Source: Negativicoccus succinicivorans
Lineage (GTDB): Bacteria; Bacillota; Negativicutes; Veillonellales; Negativicoccaceae
Direction: 5' to 3'
Assembly: GCF_014207605.1 (NCBI RefSeq)
Contig: NZ_JACHHI010000003.1
Location: forward strand, 62,001 to 126,000
DNA length: 64,000 nucleotides
In this document: positions 3,565 through 62,255 of the stretch, piece after piece
Layout: every line of letters begins with the position of its first letter
Position numbering within the stretch: the stretch's first letter is position 1
Made by a program: the position numbers and the translations under genes
Notes under the pieces: generated by a model
Database searches by the model: none
What the model was told of the DNA's origin: nothing
Seen by the model: the letters and a program-made list of their open reading frames with translations, nothing else

Positions 3565-4683
3565 TTACGCGGAGTGCGGATTTTCAAAGCCCAAAGAGTC
3601 ACGCAACAAGGGCATTTCCCACAGCGCTTTGCCCGCGCCGATGGCCACCGCATAGAGCGGATCTTCGCCGAGATACACCGGCACGCCGAGAAATTGTGTT
3701 AAGTAACGATCTAACCCGCGCAAAAGCGCGCCGCCACCGACCAGCATGATGCCGTGCGACGAAATCCATTGACTGAGTTCGGGGCGTGTTTGATGTAACA
3801 CTTCATGCAACGCCTGTGCGATCTGATGCGCGTAGGGAATCAGCGCCGGTCGCAACATGGCTGCCGTGATTTCCGTTTGCCGCGGTAAACCGGTTTGACT
3901 GTCTTTACCCGCGCATAGCGATGTGGCCATCGCGTTTTCATCGACATCGCAGAAACGCTGTTTCAAACGTTCACAGGTGAGGGGACCGAGCAACAATCCC
4001 GTTTCCTGTAAAACGATTTTCGCAATCGCCCGATCAATATCCATGCTGCCGAGCGGCAGCACTTCCGTATCCACCAAACCGTTCGCGTCCACCACGGCCA
4101 GATCCGTTTTGCCCGCGCCCAAATCGGCGACCAACAGTCCCGCTGTTTTGGCTTTATCCAAATCGGCGCCGTACGCCGCGGCAAGCGTTCCCGACAAGCG
4201 TACCGCTTTCCGCGCTCCGAGAGCCGCCGCCGTGCCCAACAAGGCCGCCGCAGCGACATCGCTTTGCCGTCCCGCCATCGTCATCACCAGGCGCGGACGT
4301 TTCCATAAACCCGAAACTTGTCGTCCGACAAGTTCACGCACCAAGTGCGCCGCCGCGGAAAAATCGGTGATGACACCGCGTTCCACCGGTCGCACCAAGG
4401 CAAGTTCCTGCGGTACGCGGCCGGCCAAGGCCGCCGCTTTCGTACCGAGCGCCACGACTTCACGCGTTTCCCGGTCGACTGCCAGCACCGAAGGCTCCCG
4501 TACCACGACACCCTCGCCGCGTACATACACTACCGTGTTGGCGGAGCCCAAATCGACAGCGATATCCGTCGCGCCGACACCGGCCAGCCAATCGAGCAGG
4601 GAGTGCGAGCGATGTTGCCGCGTCGCGGGCGGTGTCCGTCGCGCGCTTTTGCTCCGTACCGATTTACGTTTATTTCCGAACAA
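3565..4683 (-). CDS. MreB/Mbl-family actin-like protein, degenerate paralogue
   Basis: A 372-aa actin-fold protein of the MreB/Mbl family, which normally polymerises under the membrane to guide wall synthesis. Phosphate-1 ([18 protein letters not shown], residues 44-61) and the C-terminal [15 protein letters not shown] are conserved. Phosphate-2 reads DLGAGKTDL instead of DIGGGTTE, and the EEP motif holding the catalytic glutamate is replaced by SGT (residues 164-166), so ATP hydrolysis is probably lost. A basic 35-residue N-terminal extension is extra. The start is TTG at 4683 with GGGAG six bases upstream, overlapping the murA stop by 14 bp (translational coupling). Confidence 0.85.
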
Positions 4684-5920
4684 TGTCTGCTCCCAAACCG
4701 CTTAATTTTTCCACAAAACGGTCATAACCGCGATCGATGTGATGCAGATGTCCGACCGACGTCATTCCGTCCGCCACCAGACCGGCCAGCACCAAGGCGG
4801 CGCCGGCGCGCAAATCGGTCGCTTCAACCGGACAACCTTCCAAACGTTCCACGCCTTCGATCACCGCGCTGCCGCCTTCAATTTTAATTTTGGCGCCCAT
4901 GCGAGTCAACGCATCCACATGCATGAACCGATTTTCAAATACGGTTTCTTTGACCACGCTCGTGCCCTCGGCAATTGTCGTGAGCGCCATAAACTGCGCC
5001 TGCATATCGGTCGGAAAACCCGGATACGGCAATGTTTTCACGTCGACCGCCTGCAAGCGATCCGGACCGACTACGCGAATGCCGTTGATGTCTTCCACCA
5101 CGGCCGCGCCCGCTTCTTTTAACTTCGCGACCAGCGGTTTGACGTGCTCCGCCAACGCGTTTTCCACATACACATCCCCGCCCGTCATGGCCGCCGCCAC
5201 CATGAAAGTACCGGCTTCGATACGATCGGGAATGACACTATGCACGACACCATGCAGTTCTTTCACGCCTTCGATGCGGATCACATTCGTGCCCGCGCCG
5301 CGAATGTTCGCGCCCATGCTGTTCAAAAACATCACGAGATCGACAATTTCAGGCTCTTCCGCTGCATTTTCAATGACCGTGCGACCGTCGGCAAGGCATG
5401 CCGCCATCAACGCGTTTTCGGTCGCGCCGACACTCGGAAAATCGAGGTAAATCTGCGCGCCTTTTAAGCCGTTCGGTACGACGGCTTCCACGTAGCCGTG
5501 CCCCAAATTAATTTCCGCACCGAGCGCGGCGAACGCTTTCAAATGCAGATCAATCGGTCGGGTGCCGATCGCGCAACCGCCCGGCAGCGAAATTTTCGCC
5601 CGCCCCAAGCGTGCCAAAAGCGGCCCCATCACAAGGAACGAAGCCCGCATTTTGCTGACCCATTCGTACGGCGCCTCATAAGATGTCAACTGCGCCGCAT
5701 CAAAGCGTAATTCATTGTCCGTTTGGGAAACGACGACGCCGAGTTGCTCCAACACCTTGCAAATGGTCGTGACATCTTCCAAATGCGGAATCTCCGGCAA
5801 AGTGCTCGGAGTAATCGGCAGCATCGTCGCCGCAATAATCGGCAATACGGCGTTTTTGGCGCTCGACACGCGCACTTTGCCGGAAAGTCGGCGACCGCCT
5901 TTGATGAATAATTGTTCCAA
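4670..5920 (-). CDS. murA: UDP-N-acetylglucosamine 1-carboxyvinyltransferase
   Basis: First committed step of peptidoglycan synthesis: transfers enolpyruvate from PEP to UDP-GlcNAc in the cytoplasm. It is 416 aa, the usual length. Key residues are Lys22-Asn23 in SSAKNAVLP and the fosfomycin-target cysteine Cys116 in [15 protein letters not shown]. The start is TTG at 5920 with GGAGGA five bases upstream. It is first in a minus-strand group with the MreB paralogue, an order resembling the murA-spoIID-mbl neighbourhood of spore-forming Firmicutes with the spoIID part absent. Confidence 0.95.
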
Positions 5921-20420: not shown

Positions 20421-20715
20421 AAAAAAGCCTCCCGTCCACATCCATATCCAAATGATATGGGGACGAAAGGTATCCTTCCGCGGTGCCACCCCGCTTGACT
20501 GGTATCAGTCCGGCTTACTACGTACGGCGATTTGCGATACGCGCTTCGGGATAGCGGCCGAAGATGCCGTCGACGCCTACCCCGCGCAGCGGATCGGGTC
20601 GTATCTCCCGGGCCCATTCGCGTCGTCCTCCCGCGCCGATCTTCCACTGTCATCGGCTCGCTTTAGCGTTTGTTACGACGGTACTCTTCCCGTTCATCGA
20701 TGATTTCATTTAATT
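20421..20715 (-). promoter_or_regulatory. T-box riboswitch, predicted tryptophan-specific
   Basis: The leader RNA senses uncharged tRNA and controls the fused S-ATPase operon. The T-box core GGGTGGCACCGCGG is at 20478-20491. Stem I elements (GGGAAGAGTA, AGCGAGCC, GTGGAAG) lie at 20640-20695. The specifier is read as TGG (Trp) at 20614-20616 after GCGAA. A terminator stem (CCTTTCGTCC with GGACGGGAGG, plus an inner CCATATC/GATATGG arm) ends in T6 at 20421-20470. The specifier assignment is by alignment to known T-boxes by eye. Confidence 0.88.
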
Positions 20716-48034: not shown

Positions 48035-49431
48035 ACTTCCTCCTGTTCCGGGATCGGTCCCCGATAATCGCCGTCAAAGCAGGCAAAGCAAAGATCCTCT
48101 TTACGCAAACCCGCAATCGCTTTGGCCAAACCTTCCTGCGACAGGAAATGCAATCGGTCGGCGCCGATATGTTCGCGAATTTCTTCCACCGTATGCGTGA
48201 CCGCGATCAGCTGGTTCCGCTCCGAAGTATCGATGCCGAAATAGCAAGGATATTCCACCGTCGGTGAAGAAACGCAAAGCGCGATTTCTTTGGCGCCCGC
48301 GTTGCGCAGTAAATTAATAATAATCCCGCTCGTCGTGCCGCGCACAATCGAGTCGTCGATTAAAACGACGCGTTTGCCGGCGACGTTATTGATGACCGGG
48401 TTAAGTTTCATTTTGACGGAACGTTCCCGCATGGCCTGCGTCGGCTGAATAAAGGTGCGTCCCATGTAGCGGTTTTTAATCAGGCCTTCCGCGTAGGGAA
48501 TGCCTGACGCGCGCGCATAGCCGATCGCCGCGACGTTGCCGGAGTCCGGCACGCTCATGACGATATCGCCCGTGAAGCCGCATTCTTCCCATAACCGGGC
48601 CCCCATGTTGAGGCGCGCATCGTACACGCTTTCCCCGTCCAAAACCGAATCGGGGCGCGCGAAATACACGTATTCAAACGAGCAGCGCGCTTGCCGGCGC
48701 TTGCTTTGCGGCGTGACAAGAGAGCTGAAATGCGGACCGTCGGCGGCGATACGCACGATTTGTCCCGGCGCGATGTCGCGGACGAATTTCGCGCCGACCG
48801 AATCCAGCGCGCAAGTTTCGGACGCCAAGACCCAGCCGGTATCCGTAGCCCCGAGGCACAACGGACGATAGCCTTGCGGATCGCGTACGCCGTACAGTTC
48901 CGTCGCCGTCGCGACCACTAAGCAGTACGCGCCGTCGATTTGCTGACACACATCTTGCAAACGTTCCGTGACATCTTTGCCCACGGAGCGCGCGAGTAAA
49001 TTGACAATGACTTCCGTGTCCATCGTCGTGCGAAATGTCGTGCCGAGTTTAATTTGTTTTTCCCGCAACAAGCGCGCGTTCACAAGGTTGCCGTTATGCG
49101 CGATCGCAACCGGACCGAGGTCCGTTTCCACCTGCAACGGCTGCACGTTTTCTTTAATGCTGGCGCCGGTCGTGGAGTAACGCACATGACCGATCGCGAT
49201 TTTGCCGTTATCCGCCGGCAAATCCCGGAACACTTCCGTGACCAGACCCATGCCCGCCTGCGTCGTCATCGTTTGGCCGTCGGCGACCGTGATCCCGGCA
49301 CTTTCCTGACCGCGATGCTGCAACGCAAACAAACCGTAGTAGGCGGACAGGGGCACCGAGGTGTCGGGGTCATAGATCCCGAACACCCCGCACTCTTCCT
49401 CAATGCGGTCCCAGATAGAGTCGTACGCCAT
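48025..49431 (-). CDS. purF: Amidophosphoribosyltransferase
   Basis: First committed step of purine synthesis; 468 aa. A 13-residue propeptide precedes the catalytic Cys14 (EEECGVFGIY), freed by autoprocessing. Glutaminase features (HRGQESAGI, GHVRYSTTG) and the PRPP loop VVLIDDSIVRGTTSG are present. Cysteines near residue 258 (ARCSFEY) and in LCFACFDGDY fit the Fe-S cluster type of Bacillus. It overlaps the purC gene end by one base. Confidence 0.96.
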   Translation of the reverse strand: MAYDSIWDRIEEECGVFGIYDPDTSVPLSAYYGLFALQHRGQESAGITVADGQTMTTQAGMGLVTEVFRDLPADNGKIAIGHVRYSTTGASIKENVQPLQVETDLGPVAIAHNGNLVNARLLREKQIKLGTTFRTTMDTEVIVNLLARSVGKDVTERLQDVCQQIDGAYCLVVATATELYGVRDPQGYRPLCLGATDTGWVLASETCALDSVGAKFVRDIAPGQIVRIAADGPHFSSLVTPQSKRRQARCSFEYVYFARPDSVLDGESVYDARLNMGARLWEECGFTGDIVMSVPDSGNVAAIGYARASGIPYAEGLIKNRYMGRTFIQPTQAMRERSVKMKLNPVINNVAGKRVVLIDDSIVRGTTSGIIINLLRNAGAKEIALCVSSPTVEYPCYFGIDTSERNQLIAVTHTVEEIREHIGADRLHFLSQEGLAKAIAGLRKEDLCFACFDGDYRGPIPEQEEVCP

Positions 49432-50147
49432 CAGTTTTCTTTTCCTGTCAAGCGGCGCAGCATTTCATGATACGCCTCTTCCACATTACCGAGATCGCGA
49501 CGGAAACGATCTTTGTCGAGTTTTTCCAAGGTGTTGGCATCCCAGAAACGGCAGGTGTCCGGAGAGATTTCATCGCCGAGCAGAATGTTGCCTTTCGTGT
49601 CTTTGCCGAATTCCAATTTGAAGTCGACCAAAATAACTTCCTTTTCCGCCAGGAATTTTTTCAGAACATCATTGACTTTGAACGCGAGTTTCGTGATGGT
49701 GTCCAAGTCTTCCTGCGACGCGATGTTGAGCGCGCGAATGTGGTACGTGTTGATCAGCGGATCGTCGAGATCATCATCTTTCAGGCAGAATTCAATCGTC
49801 GGGAAAGCGAGTTCTTCGCCTTCTTCGCGGCCGTAACGTTTCGCCATCGAGCCGGCGCAGCGGTTGCGGATAATGACTTCCAACGGAACGATCGAAAGTT
49901 TTTTGACGCGCTGTTCACGATCATCCAAGCGTTCGATAAAATGCGTCGGCACACCGTTTTTCGCCAAAAGATCAAAGAAAAAAGTCGTAATCTTATTATT
50001 TAATACGCCTTTGTCGGTAATGGTGCCTTTTTTCGCGCCGTTGAATGCCGTCGCGTCGTCTTTATAACGAACGATAACTTCGTCGTCGCGATCCGTTTTG
50101 AATACCTGTTTCGCTTTGCCTTCGTACATCATTTCCAATTTTTCCAT
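49431..50147 (-). CDS. purC: SAICAR synthetase
   Basis: Ligates aspartate to CAIR; 238 aa. [33 protein letters not shown]-type [20 protein letters not shown] region and [11 protein letters not shown] are the family motifs. The start ATG at 50147 is six bases after GAGGGT; the adjacent upstream ATG is too close. Confidence 0.95.
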
Positions 50148-50198
50148 CATGACCCTCTTTCTCCGTCGTTCGGCGGAATCAATAAATGACCGTTCTGA

Positions 50199-57263: not shown

Positions 57264-58796
57264 TTATTTACCGTAATTTTTATCGGCTTTGACTTCGATG
57301 CGGAATGCGTTTTCTCCCAGGGATACGCGATCGACATCATATACATCTTCGCCGTATTTCTGATCGAGGTAGTATTCCACCGCGTTTTCCGCCTGATCGG
57401 AAAGCGAATCGGGGGTCGCGCCATACGTGTATTTACCGAGAATTTCCGTGATCGCCGCGCGGTCTTCCGCCGGCAACGCTTTCGTGTAATCCATCAGTTC
57501 CAGGACCGTATGATCTTTGACGGCGGCCGGTTGTTCCGCCGCTACCTGCCGTTCGATAAAACTCGAACCCATGCGAATTTCCATCCGATACGCATTCGTT
57601 TCCAAACGATTAACGGCGGCTTTGTACGTTTCCTCACCGTACGTTTGGTTCAAATAGTGTTGCACTTCATTGCGAGCTTTTTCCACAAGGTTAGCCGCCG
57701 TGTCGCCGGCGACATACTGATTCAGGATATGCGTAATGTTATTACGGTCAGTGTCGGTCATTTGGCTCGTGAAGTCCGTCAATTCATATACGAATGCGGC
57801 GGCCGGCGCGGTCGGTTGCGCCGGAGCGACTGCCGCGCCCGGCGATTTATAATGATCGTCAGCTTTGATCTGTACATCATATGCGCCGTTTTCCAGTTTC
57901 TTCACGTCGACATCATAGAAGTCGTTGCCGTATTTCTGATCCAGGTAATGCTCAACGGCATCTTCCGCACGTTTCGCCAAATTAGCGGCGCTGTCACCGT
58001 ACGTATAGTTGCCGAGAATCGCCGTGATCTGTTCACGATCAGCCGCGGCCATTTCCTTCGTGAAGTCCGTCAGCTGCAAAACGATGCTCGCCGTGGCCGG
58101 TGCTACGTTCGATTGCGCCGGAGCGACTGCCGCGCCCGGCGATTTATAATGATCGTCAGCTTTGATCTGAACGTCGTAAGCGCCGTCTTCCAGTTTCTTC
58201 ACGTCGACATCATAGAAGTCTTCGCCGTATTTCTGACCCAAGTAATGTTCAACGGCGTCTTCCGCACGTTCCGCCAAGTTAGCGGCGCTGTCACCGTACG
58301 TATAGTTGCCGAGAATCGCCGTGATCTGTTCACGATCGGCCGCGGCCATTTCCTTCGTGAAGTCCGTCAACTGCAAGACGATACCGCCGTCAGCCAATAC
58401 GGTCGACGCGGGCACTGCAGCCGGTTCCGTCGGAGCGGGCGCTACGGTCGGTTGTGCCGGAGCCGGTTGAGCCGGAACCTGGTTAGCATCTTTGGTAACG
58501 TAAATATTCATGTGGTGGTCACTCACATCTTTATCCGTATAAACAAAGTATTGACCTTCCCCATATTTTTGGTTCAAGAAATTCTGAATATCAGCTACCG
58601 CCTGATCCACCGCGCCTTCACTGACGCCGCGTCCCAAGTAGGGTACCGCAAGATCACCGGTGTGTTGCTTATCTTCTACGGTCAGCGTCTTGCTCTGGTC
58701 ACGGAGATAATACATATCAACATCGTAATAGTTCGTCGCCATGGCGCTTGCGCCTATGGCCGCCAATACGGTTAATGCTAACGCTGTTTTTCTCAT
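57264..58796 (-). CDS. Exported protein with four tandem ~80-aa modules
   Basis: A 510-aa exported protein of no recognised family. Signal peptide at residues 1-20 (LAAIGASAMA). A divergent N-terminal module (24-105) and a Pro/Ala linker (106-140) precede four modules, near 142-225, 240-322, 335-410 and 425-510. Each follows the pattern L.DfT..m...dR..It.iL..Y..GdtaanL...A..aVehYL.QkYGe..YdVdv..le..aYdv.Ikad..Y. Modules 1 and 2 are nearly identical. The start is the ATG at 58796 after AAAGGAGG. It shares its leader RNA with two downstream-cluster genes, and the module with two others. An envelope or extracellular binding role is only inferred. Confidence 0.75.
   Translation of the reverse strand: MRKTALALTVLAAIGASAMATNYYDVDMYYLRDQSKTLTVEDKQHTGDLAVPYLGRGVSEGAVDQAVADIQNFLNQKYGEGQYFVYTDKDVSDHHMNIYVTKDANQVPAQPAPAQPTVAPAPTEPAAVPASTVLADGGIVLQLTDFTKEMAAADREQITAILGNYTYGDSAANLAERAEDAVEHYLGQKYGEDFYDVDVKKLEDGAYDVQIKADDHYKSPGAAVAPAQSNVAPATASIVLQLTDFTKEMAAADREQITAILGNYTYGDSAANLAKRAEDAVEHYLDQKYGNDFYDVDVKKLENGAYDVQIKADDHYKSPGAAVAPAQPTAPAAAFVYELTDFTSQMTDTDRNNITHILNQYVAGDTAANLVEKARNEVQHYLNQTYGEETYKAAVNRLETNAYRMEIRMGSSFIERQVAAEQPAAVKDHTVLELMDYTKALPAEDRAAITEILGKYTYGATPDSLSDQAENAVEYYLDQKYGEDVYDVDRVSLGENAFRIEVKADKNYGK
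57841..58372. repeat. Tandem DNA repeat, period 297 bp
   Basis: Two near-identical in-frame copies (57841-58137 and 58138 to about 58372, the second partial at its upstream end) encoding modules 2 and 1 of the 510-aa protein; a 99-codon period indicates recent duplication. Confidence 0.75.
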
Positions 58797-58817: not shown

Positions 58818-58884
58818 GTCTGTCACTGTAATATAAAACTTTCAGCTGATCGCAGGGACGATCAATTGCAAACAACGGACAGAC
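58818..58884 (-). promoter_or_regulatory. Structured leader RNA, copy A
   Basis: On the minus strand GTCTGTC (58878-58884) pairs with GACAGAC (58818-58824). Inside is a GATCG/CGATC hairpin (58848-58863) and a U-rich strand. The 3' arm ends about 12 bases before AGGAGG of the 510-aa repeat protein gene. Shared with copies B and C. Confidence 0.7.
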
Positions 58885-59147: not shown

Positions 59148-59178
59148 AAAAAAACAGCTCCTTGCGGAGCCGTTTTTT
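59148..59178 (-). terminator. Terminator of the frameshifted repeat gene
   Basis: GGCTCC-GCAA-GGAGCT stem followed by T7 on the minus strand. Confidence 0.85.
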
Positions 59179-59183
59179 ATTTG

Positions 59184-59627
59184 TTATTGCTGTTCTTTCG
59201 CAGCCTTTGTATTCAGACGATGCTTCAAGTAGTTACGCCCGACCATCACCCGATACTGAGCCTTGCCGTTATCCGACGTGACGAATACGACTTCAAATAC
59301 ATGCTCGCCGTATTTCTGCGCCAAATATTTCGCCGCCGCTTCACAAGCCTCTTGCGGCCGGTAGCCTTCAAAATAGCCACGCAACTCTTTCTGATCCTGC
59401 GCGCTCAGACGTTTCGTGCAGTCCACGAACACGCCGCGCGAATCGGGTTGCGGCGGTACAATTTGCGCGTCGTAAGCGCCGTTAAAATAGTTGGCATCGG
59501 CTTGCATGTACTGGCCCATGCGCACGCCGTACTCATTGTAGTAGGCGCGACCGTCGGTGTAACCGTTCGGCGTTTCACCGGCTTGGCGCGGCGGTACGCC
59601 TTTCGCCGCCGGAATTACTTGTTTTTT
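59184..59627 (-). CDS. -1-frame continuation of the motif-repeat protein
   Basis: About 147 codons open from the frameshift site to TAA at 59184. It begins with a third copy of the motif repeat (GVPPRQAGETPNGYTDG, then RAYYNEYGVRMGQYMQADA) and ends with a ~75-residue module matching those of the neighbouring repeat proteins (FVDCTKRLSAQDQKELRGYF, YLAQKYGEHVFEVVF). A GTG at 59525 could start a shorter protein but has no ribosome site. Joined to the upstream frame by -1 frameshifting it would give a 341-aa exported protein. Confidence 0.65.
   Translation of the reverse strand, partial: KKQVIPAAKGVPPRQAGETPNGYTDGRAYYNEYGVRMGQYMQADANYFNGAYDAQIVPPQPDSRGVFVDCTKRLSAQDQKELRGYFEGYRPQEACEAAAKYLAQKYGEHVFEVVFVTSDNGKAQYRVMVGRNYLKHRLNTKAAKEQQ
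59578..59627 (-). promoter_or_regulatory. Predicted -1 ribosomal frameshift signal
   Basis: Slippery heptamer A AAA AAC in phase with the upstream frame (59621-59627), eight-base spacer containing the in-frame TAA, then a stacked hairpin: CCGGC/GCCGG outer arm, GGCG/CGCC, and an inner GGCG-TAC-CGCC (59578-59612). Confidence 0.65.
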
Positions 59628-60208
59628 TCGGAGTTCTCCTGCTTTTTTTCCGGCGCTACCTGCGGCGGCATGTTCGGATACATATCTTTGTTTTCCGCCA
59701 TCTTGTCCGTCATCGGGCGGGCGTCCGGATCGAAGTAACGAGCGTCCGCCTGCATGTATTGGCCCATGCGTACGCCGTGTTCATTGTAATACGCCTGACC
59801 GTCGGTATAACCGTTCATGGTTTGACCGGGGGCATACGGCTGTACGCCTTTTGCCATCGGTTTTACTTCCGGTTTTACTTCCTCTTTAACGTTCTTGTCT
59901 TGTTTTTCTTGCGGCGCTACCTGCGGCGGCACGTTCGGATAAAGATCTTTGTTTTCCGCCATCTTGTCCGTCATCGGTCTGGCATCCGGATCAAAGTAAC
60001 GAGCGTCCGCCTGCATGTACTGGCCCATGCGTACGCCGTGTTCATTGTAATACGCCTGACCGTCGGTATAACCGTTCATGGTTTGCCCTGCGGCATACGG
60101 TTGTACGCCTTGCGCCGCCGGCGTAACCTGTGCCGGAGCGTTGTCCGCGGCCAATACGCTGCCGCTGATTGCTGCCAATGCAGCCATTGCGAGTAATGTC
60201 TTTTTCAT
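59615..60208 (-). CDS. Exported motif-repeat protein, zero-frame product
   Basis: A 197-aa exported protein. Signal peptide at residues 1-21 (AAISGSVLA/AD). Two copies of a ~75-residue unit follow: GVQPYA.GQTMNGYTDGQAYYNEHGVRMGQYMQADARYFDPDARPMTDKMAENKD (broken here into its motifs GYTDGQAYYNEHGVRMGQY and DPDARPMTDKMAENKD), separated by a Lys/Glu/Pro linker. It stops at TAA 59615, right after A AAA AAC, with the third repeat in the -1 frame. AAAGGAGG precedes the ATG at 60208, and leader copy B lies upstream. Function unknown. Confidence 0.75.
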   Translation of the reverse strand: MKKTLLAMAALAAISGSVLAADNAPAQVTPAAQGVQPYAAGQTMNGYTDGQAYYNEHGVRMGQYMQADARYFDPDARPMTDKMAENKDLYPNVPPQVAPQEKQDKNVKEEVKPEVKPMAKGVQPYAPGQTMNGYTDGQAYYNEHGVRMGQYMQADARYFDPDARPMTDKMAENKDMYPNMPPQVAPEKKQENSEKNK

Positions 60209-60227: not shown

Positions 60228-60296
60228 GTCTGTCGCTGGAATAAAATTCTTTCGACTGATCGCCAATGCGATCCATTTTCCAAGAACCGGACAGAC
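60228..60296 (-). promoter_or_regulatory. Structured leader RNA, copy B
   Basis: GTCTGTC (60290-60296) pairs with GACAGAC (60228-60234); inner hairpin GATCGC-ATTG-GCGATC (60258-60273). No promoter is seen directly upstream, so it is probably transcribed from 60701 through the preceding gene. Confidence 0.7.
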
Positions 60297-60615: not shown

Positions 60616-60686
60616 GTCTGTCAGTGGAATAAAATTTCGTTTCGGCGGACCGCCAACGCGATCCATTTTCCAACAACTGGACAGAC
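60616..60686 (-). promoter_or_regulatory. Structured leader RNA, copy C
   Basis: GTCTGTC (60680-60686) pairs with GACAGAC (60616-60622); inner hairpin GATCGC-GTTG-GCGGTC (60648-60663) keeps pairing through a G-U. Confidence 0.7.
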
Positions 60687-60795: not shown

Positions 60796-62055
60796 TCAGT
60801 CGTCCGCGCGACCGCGTCCCGGCCATCCGTCGACGCCTTCCAGGATATCCCAAATGATTCGACCGACACCGTCTTCCAACCATTCCGGGCGACGGTCGTC
60901 CGCACGATCACTTGCGATTTCGATGCGATAGACATGCGCATTCACGCGTTCGTAACTGACGTCGTAGGCCCGATAGCCGTACGCACGTTCCAAGTAACGT
61001 TCCACATCGGCCGCCGCGTGCTGCGCCAGCCGCTCCGCATCCCGACCTGTCGCGTAGCTGTCCAAGATGCGACGAATTTCACTGCGATCGCGATTTGTCA
61101 AATCCGACGTGCGATCGCGCAATTCAAAAATGACATCGACTTTCTGCCGATCGCCTTGTTTGGCTTTCACATCAATACGGAATTCGAAGCGATTTTTATG
61201 CCCGGTCTGCACGCGCACCACATCGACATCGAAACGATCGCGGCCGTACGTTTGGTCCAGGTATTCTGCGACGGCCTGTTTAGCCGCTGCGGCATAACGG
61301 CGCGCGAAGCGGTCTTCATTGGCGCCCGTCCTCAGACCGTCGGTCGCGTCCTGAATACGTTCCGCGATGAGCCATTGATCGCGGTGCGTCAATTGGCCGG
61401 AGAAATCACGCAAATTATAGTTGGCAGAGAAGTAATATTCCCGCTGCGTGTCTTGGTAGTTTTTGTCGCCCCGCACGATGACCCGATACGCATTGCTCGA
61501 GAGCCACTTCGTTTCCACGCGGTAGTGGCGGCTGCCATAAGCGCGATCCAAATAATGCTGGACGGATTGACGCGCCTGTTCCGCAAGTTTTGCGGTCGTG
61601 TCGCCGGCCGTGTAGCGACCGAGCAAACCGCGAATGTCGGAACGCTGCGTTTCCGTCAGCGAATTCGTTTCATCTTCAAATTCAAGAATCATGTACGCGG
61701 GCGCGTTCTGATCTTTCGCATGCGCACGCCGGTTATCATCGTAACGTACATACAGATCCAATCGACCCGAGCGCGTCCGATCCGCCGCAGCGACGTCATA
61801 CACATCGCGACCGTAAGCGGAATCCAGATACCTTTCGAGCTCGTCTTCCAAACGATTCATATCGCGTTCGGAAATGCGACCGCCCGCATACGGACGCGCC
61901 GCGCGGTTCAAGTGCACGCGGTCACGGACCGACAGGCTGCCCGTCTGATCGACTACGGAAAACGCACGGACATCATAGTAATCCGCGGCAAACGCGCTGC
62001 CCGCGACGCAAAGAAGCGTCAACATCGATACTAATGTTTTTTTCGTTCGTTTCAT
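60796..62055 (-). CDS. Exported Arg-rich protein with tandem ~80-aa modules
   Basis: A 419-aa exported protein, signal peptide 1-23 (CVAGSAFA/AD). It has an N-terminal module (YYDVRAFSVVDQTGSLSVRDR, YLDSAYGRDVYDV) and three further modules of the same family as the 510-aa protein (LTETQRSDIRGLLGRYTAGDTTAKLAEQARQSVQHYL and LTNRDRSEIRRILDSYATG-type segments). It is strikingly Arg/Asp-rich and Lys-poor compared with its relatives. The start is the ATG at 62055 after AGGAGGG. No leader of the A/B/C type and no clear terminator are seen. Function unknown. Confidence 0.72.
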   Translation of the reverse strand: MKRTKKTLVSMLTLLCVAGSAFAADYYDVRAFSVVDQTGSLSVRDRVHLNRAARPYAGGRISERDMNRLEDELERYLDSAYGRDVYDVAAADRTRSGRLDLYVRYDDNRRAHAKDQNAPAYMILEFEDETNSLTETQRSDIRGLLGRYTAGDTTAKLAEQARQSVQHYLDRAYGSRHYRVETKWLSSNAYRVIVRGDKNYQDTQREYYFSANYNLRDFSGQLTHRDQWLIAERIQDATDGLRTGANEDRFARRYAAAAKQAVAEYLDQTYGRDRFDVDVVRVQTGHKNRFEFRIDVKAKQGDRQKVDVIFELRDRTSDLTNRDRSEIRRILDSYATGRDAERLAQHAAADVERYLERAYGYRAYDVSYERVNAHVYRIEIASDRADDRRPEWLEDGVGRIIWDILEGVDGWPGRGRADD

Positions 62056-62255
62056 CAAAGTCCCTCCTCACCGGGAATACGGTCTCACAGGATCGTCACC
62101 ATTGGGAAACGTACTTGTACTTGTCTTTGTCTATATTTTAGCACTCTTTGGTAAAAACCTCGCAAAGACGCGCCATTTTTGAGCCTTTTCTAATGTTTAA
62201 AACGCACTTCATCCTTTTGTTTCCAGACTTCTTTGTCATGTCAGGCGCCGACAAC

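Follow-up and report, generated by a model that had tools for sequence, protein, structure and literature searches.

Reading frames and predicted products of the locus

We study a gene on the minus strand of the window, by which we mean the whole 64,000-nucleotide stretch of Negativicoccus succinicivorans DNA analysed here (the genome is 1.4 Mb in 10 contigs). Its coding sequence is divided between two overlapping reading frames, laid out as follows in the direction of reading:

60228..60296, minus strand: structured 5' leader (GTCTGTC...GACAGAC, with an inner hairpin), directly before the ORF1 ribosome-binding site
59615..60208, minus strand: ORF1 (frame 0), 197 aa, signal peptide and two motif repeats; stop TAA at 59617-59615
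59184..59621, minus strand: ORF2 (-1 frame), 145 codons after the shift, third motif repeat and POTRA-like C-terminal module
59187..59438, minus strand: the C-terminal module, predicted beta-alpha-alpha-beta-beta (AlphaFold2, pLDDT 88)
59151..59175, minus strand: intrinsic terminator read from the sequence after ORF2 (GCTCC GCAA GGAGC and a T-rich tail), the same in Negativicoccus massiliensis

By inspection, ORF1 begins with an evident Sec-type signal peptide (MKKTLLAMAALAAISGSVLA-AD); its two motif repeats are nearly identical, and its 3' end reads GAA AAA AAC AAG TAA. The -1 frame has CAA at 59621 as its first codon and stays open for 145 codons, to a stop that ends at 59184. Joining the 196 ORF1 codons through AAC to the 145 codons of ORF2 gives a predicted fusion of 341 aa. 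A preliminary description of this DNA had reported an in-phase A AAA AAC (59621-59627) followed by AAG TAA in the gene at 60208, a -1 frame that runs unbroken as far as 59184 and takes in a third repeat plus a C-terminal module shared with the neighbours, and predicted products of 197 aa and 341 aa; we find the same bases, an open frame and a matching module, and recover both lengths when we recompute them from the frames. Annotation pipelines would call this gene either a 197-aa protein or a pseudogene, and in both cases its second half would be lost.

The third motif repeat (NGYTDGRAYYNEYGVRMGQYMQADANYF) sits in the -1 frame. Compared over 28 codons with repeats 1 and 2, it carries 11-13 synonymous changes and only 5 nonsynonymous ones, and because the changes are mostly synonymous, the -1 frame was still coding long after the repeat was duplicated. 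Homologous protein sequence likewise runs on across the junction between ORF1 and ORF2. No family in Pfam or NCBIfam matches either ORF.

The C-terminal module has about 70 residues and recurs four or five times in each of the flanking exported proteins (57267-58796 and 60799-62058, minus strand). Two other genera of the family also have it, in proteins whose genes lie between ileS and xpt, but there the repeat gene itself is absent. By sequence, the module has no convincing match among solved structures; 2 of the 11 modules match Pfam POTRA_2, but below threshold (the better E is 0.07), and the Foldseek match of the module has an E of about 0.16. In the AlphaFold2 model the secondary structure elements fall at E3-6, H13-25, H28-43, E48-54 and E60-66, which is the arrangement of the POTRA fold, and the best 44 chains returned by VIA-align all contain POTRA domains, at middling Z of 4.9-6.7; for the POTRA domains of BamA, TamA, Toc75 and CdiB, Z is 5.0-6.7. 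The setting is not that of an Omp85/TpsB beta-barrel or an FtsQ-like protein: these are exported tandem modules with no evident barrel. We use 'POTRA-like' as a statement about the predicted fold and not about family membership. For the gene studied here, it is the proposed frameshift that would decide whether this module is attached.

Exported proteins built of two to five tandem POTRA-like modules occupy a conserved place near ileS/xpt in three genera of the family. Besides the two flanking proteins in the window, they are encoded at 4048-4593 of stretch L064 and at 3836-4876 of stretch L065, and no Pfam or NCBIfam family covers them.

The layout of the locus is that of a single transcription unit. 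No terminator is seen between ORF1 and ORF2 in either species, and the terminator hairpin after ORF2 can also be read on the plus strand. N. massiliensis has one promoter-like sequence (TTGACG-17-TATAAT) before the gene. In the window species the promoter precedes a truncated tandem copy (60596-60321, minus strand), and the intact gene lies behind that copy. The truncated copy encodes 91 aa with shortened repeats and a glycine-to-cysteine change in the motif, and has a leader of its own; it is absent in N. massiliensis, where the gene is single. The leader, with its inner hairpin followed by AAAGGAGG, occurs in exactly three genomic copies, each before a gene of the exported family (58818-58884, 60228-60296 and 60616-60686 of the window, minus strand), and two copies lie in the stretch of N. 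massiliensis that was read (L025, 10585-10652 and 11971-12041). All 13 of its pairs hold in all five copies, one pair with a two-sided change. There is no Rfam match to the leader, which may be a cis-regulatory RNA. The window also holds a T-box leader at 20456-20706 (minus strand, 101 bits).

Conservation of the frame break in N. massiliensis

Among 61 genomes of the order, the gene is present in only two, that of the window species and that of N. massiliensis Marseille-P2082 (LT700188.1, one contig of 1,360,589 bases). A contig search for further relatives carrying the gene returned N. massiliensis only, and the viral contigs searched yielded no copy. In N. massiliensis the gene shows about 94% identity, with its frame broken at the same base. 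The A7 run, the heptamer, AAG TAA, the 8-nt spacer and the stem are all shared; one substitution falls in the stem, which makes the apical helix one pair shorter and leaves the rest intact. Across these two species, then, both the frame transition and the open frame downstream of it are conserved. The preliminary description had named a run of eight A with a continuous frame, or loss of the heptamer and stem from strains that keep the stop, as observations that would speak against a frameshift, and neither is seen in N. massiliensis.

This comparison bears directly on one explanation of the locus, namely that the run is really A8 and the gene has no break. Homopolymer errors commonly cause apparent frameshifts, and the break here does lie at a homopolymer. 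However, two separate assemblies from two species (one in 10 contigs, the other in a single contig) have the same A7, and the remaining A-runs nearby all fall within uninterrupted genes. Because the A7, heptamer, stop, spacer and stem are the same in the second species, a sequencing error shared by both is very unlikely; we regard a sequencing or assembly error as scarcely credible and dropped this explanation.

Another way to account for a conserved break is an old one-base deletion that predates the species split, in which case only the 197-aa protein would matter and ORF2 would be a remnant, or would be reinitiated separately. Here the divergence of ORF2 is informative. Between the species, 20 of the 438 ORF2 positions differ (4.6%) and neither an indel nor an internal stop occurs, whereas the intergenic 200 bp between the ORF2 terminator and the next promoter have diverged by 21.9%, which indicates that ORF2 is maintained and is not decaying. 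The nonsynonymous divergence of ORF2 (pN 0.035) is like that of ORF1 (pN 0.040, with pN/pS 0.19) and far under the baseline pS of 0.166, the mean synonymous divergence of 55 window ORFs that include a few spurious overlapping ones. The old deletion draws some support from the pN/pS of ORF2 itself, which at 0.49 is not sharply below 1 (this value comes from 19 changes and is not significant alone). As for separate initiation, neither the sequence nor the ORF list shows a credible start close to the junction from which ORF2 could be read independently. The earliest candidate is a GTG at 59525, in the middle of the repeat, whose product would have no signal peptide; the AGGAG upstream of the junction stands some 20 nt away from the closest ATT of the -1 frame, which is too far. 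With no suitable start codon or ribosome-binding site, we rejected separate initiation of ORF2, and we consider the old deletion as a whole quite improbable.

Quantitative inspection of ORF2 reveals a further detail. Its first 53 codons contain no synonymous change in 35 sites, where neighbouring genes have a mean of 6.3 synonymous changes per 53-codon window and reach zero in 71 of 15,069 windows. This synonymous quiet suggests a constraint at the level of the RNA around and past the junction, although it could possibly reflect chance or local gene conversion.

Low divergence of ORF2 would also be expected if the A7 were a mutable switch, so that some cells carried A8 and made the long protein, and if that long form were often selected; both sequenced strains would then happen to be in the short state. 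A homopolymer in a gene for an exported protein is the usual setting of a slipped-strand switch (PMC3711429). Yet the two species agree in their state at this A-run, and phase-variable tracts tend to be longer than A7, a length that is common in this genome. Nor would such a switch explain the lack of synonymous change past the junction, the stem or the AGGAG. We judge phase variation to be unlikely.

Sequence elements around the junction

The candidate signals surrounding the frame break, all on the minus strand, are:

59645..59651, minus strand: upstream A-run, also in phase, reading A AAA AAG (A AAA AAA in N. massiliensis), judged not to be the main site
59636..59640, minus strand: Shine-Dalgarno-like AGGAG, 8 nt before the heptamer, kept in both species
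59628-59622, minus strand: A7 run in the sequence, containing most of the heptamer
59627-59621, minus strand: slippery heptamer A AAA AAC, in phase as X XXY YYZ, identical in N. massiliensis
59578..59612, minus strand: stacked GC-rich hairpin (CCGGC/GCCGG, GGCG/CGCC, GGCG/CGCC), 8 nt past the heptamer

The heptamer has the X XXY YYZ form of dnaX-type -1 signals and stands in the phase of the upstream frame. In-phase A AAA AAG/C is rare, with 3 occurrences in 16,719 codons of the long ORFs of the window. In E. coli, A_AAA_AAC is much less shift-prone than A_AAA_AAG (PMC5009743; PMC4066793), and some insertion sequences naturally use A_AAA_AAC at low efficiency (PMC4066793). We also considered that a lack of queuosine could make AAC shifty; the tgt gene is present in the genome, which rules this out. 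In N. massiliensis, the ORF at 1204-1971 of L025 (minus strand), which matches the purC-like ORF at 49431-50150 of the window, carries G GGA AAA in phase, 13 nt ahead of its stop, and an open -1 frame of 404 codons, probably a case of merely overlapping genes.

The upstream A-run, 24 nt before the heptamer, and the AGGAG were both absent from the preliminary description. A -1 shift at either A-run opens onto ORF2, raising the question of which of the two would be the site. The species differ by two substitutions between the runs, each of which is silent in frame 0 but would change the amino acid in the -1 frame; moreover, the frame-0 peptide encoded there resembles the linker of repeats 1 and 2. 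Since these changes are synonymous in frame 0 only, frame 0 would be read up to A AAA AAC, and the two substitutions together with the linker-like peptide favour this heptamer as the probable point of the shift. For a shift at the upstream run, which we rejected, the stem would in addition be more than 30 nt off.

The same pair of runs could serve RNA polymerase, which by adding one A at the A7 (or at the upstream A7/A8) in part of the transcripts would yield the 341-aa protein. The tandem arrangement of the runs, the upstream one being A8 in N. massiliensis, agrees with such slippage, as does the fact that an extra A in either run opens onto ORF2, and rescue of this kind is known in bacteria (PMC4256274; PMC1088944). 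However, it is usually at runs of nine A that selection against slippage becomes apparent (PMC1088944), and the transition here carries A7 at the site and A7/A8 upstream where about nine A/T would be typical of transcriptional slippage. Our background rates are based on the window together with 400 kb of sequence from N. massiliensis. We count 71 A7 runs in about 350 kb of coding sequence and find no A9 in the long ORFs examined; with A7 common and A9 absent, A7 is not evidently slippery for the polymerase. Slippage would also leave the conserved stem and AGGAG unneeded, and the changes between the runs fit frame 0 and not the -1 frame. We therefore hold polymerase slippage to be rather unlikely.

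The heptamer is followed by a spacer of 8 nt (AAGTAATT) and then by the hairpin, both present as the preliminary description had reported them. Downstream structures of this class lie about 5-9 nt after the heptamer; the linker of the dnaX stem, AGUGA, has 5 nt (PMC7282821). The predicted minimum free energy of the hairpin is about -20 kcal/mol in both species. This stem is moderately unusual, falling in the 1.7% tail of GC-matched 48-mers, and against shuffles of the 81-nt region its z is only -0.98, which is not significant. Taken alone, the stem is weak evidence. The AGGAG is an optional element in this class of signal; its distance of 8 nt to the heptamer compares with 9-14 nt reported for Shine-Dalgarno sequences that stimulate -1 shifts (PMC5009743), so this spacing, like that of the stem, falls at the edge of what dnaX-like signals show. 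The chance of such a pentamer within 10 nt is about 3%, and across the genome AGGAG followed by A6[G/C] occurs 8 times against 8 for the reversed control, so there is no excess. Each element of the candidate signal is thus modest alone, and the case rests on their conjunction beside a conserved frame break.

Candidate mechanism and closest known systems

Drawing on this conjunction, we infer that the shift is ribosomal, and we take dnaX-like programmed -1 frameshifting to be the probable and best reading of the locus. The preliminary description had likened the heptamer, spacer and stem to signals such as that of dnaX, and conservation in two species together with the constraint on ORF2 lends this support. 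In the mechanism we propose, a single transcript would span ORF1 and ORF2, and most ribosomes would stop at the TAA and so release an exported protein of 197 aa that contains two motif repeats. A smaller share would be paused at A AAA AAC by the GC-rich hairpin ahead, a pause to which pairing of the AGGAG with 16S rRNA behind them probably adds, and would slip back by one base so that AAA AAC re-pairs as AAA AAA. Slipped ribosomes would bypass the TAA, one codon off, and read through repeat 3 and the POTRA-like module to give a 341-aa exported protein. Because A_AAA_AAC is weak in E. coli, we expect the long form to be the minor one.

On this reading of conserved sequence, the cell probably makes the short and long versions on purpose, and presumably the two forms serve to keep envelope proteins that carry the POTRA-like module at a fixed ratio to those that lack it. 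We would put forward more tentatively, as possible, a broader claim: that a diderm Firmicute has a cellular gene, non-mobile and confined to the genus, in which a dnaX-like shift fixes the ratio of two exported envelope proteins, the longer alone bearing a POTRA-like module, with RNA constraint extending about 150 nt past the slip site. To our knowledge, proven bacterial -1 frameshifts are mostly those of mobile elements or dnaX, and few are well supported in ordinary cellular genes. We searched the literature on frameshifting in exported bacterial proteins and found nothing of use. If the reading is true, a shift that controls the presence of a POTRA-like module on an exported envelope protein would be a new use of frameshifting.

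The closest known system is E. coli dnaX, with which the locus shares an in-phase A-run heptamer, an upstream Shine-Dalgarno-like sequence and a downstream GC-rich stem-loop (PMC5009743), as well as two products that differ in their C-terminal part. The E. coli signal reads AGGGAG-10 nt-AAAAAAG. The heptamer here ends in C and not G, the spacers are 8 and 8 nt and not 10 and 5, it is the shifted product, not the frame-0 one, that is the longer, and the gene encodes an exported protein where dnaX encodes a polymerase subunit. Nearer in layout is the reversed arrangement of dnaX in which the gamma stop lies in frame 0 (PMC5009743): there, as here, termination just past the shift site gives the short product and shifting the long one, although the protein here is unrelated and is extended by a repeat and a POTRA-like module. 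Transposases of the IS3/IS911 type also shift just before the stop of ORF1 and so fuse ORF1 to a downstream -1 ORF (PMC4066793), but the gene here is non-mobile and its ORF2 supplies a further repeat and a module, not a catalytic domain. Finally, Citrobacter rodentium tssM is reported (PMC4256274) to be likewise a prematurely interrupted envelope-related gene with two length variants; the agent described there is RNA polymerase slippage, whereas A7, stem and AGGAG together point here to ribosomes.
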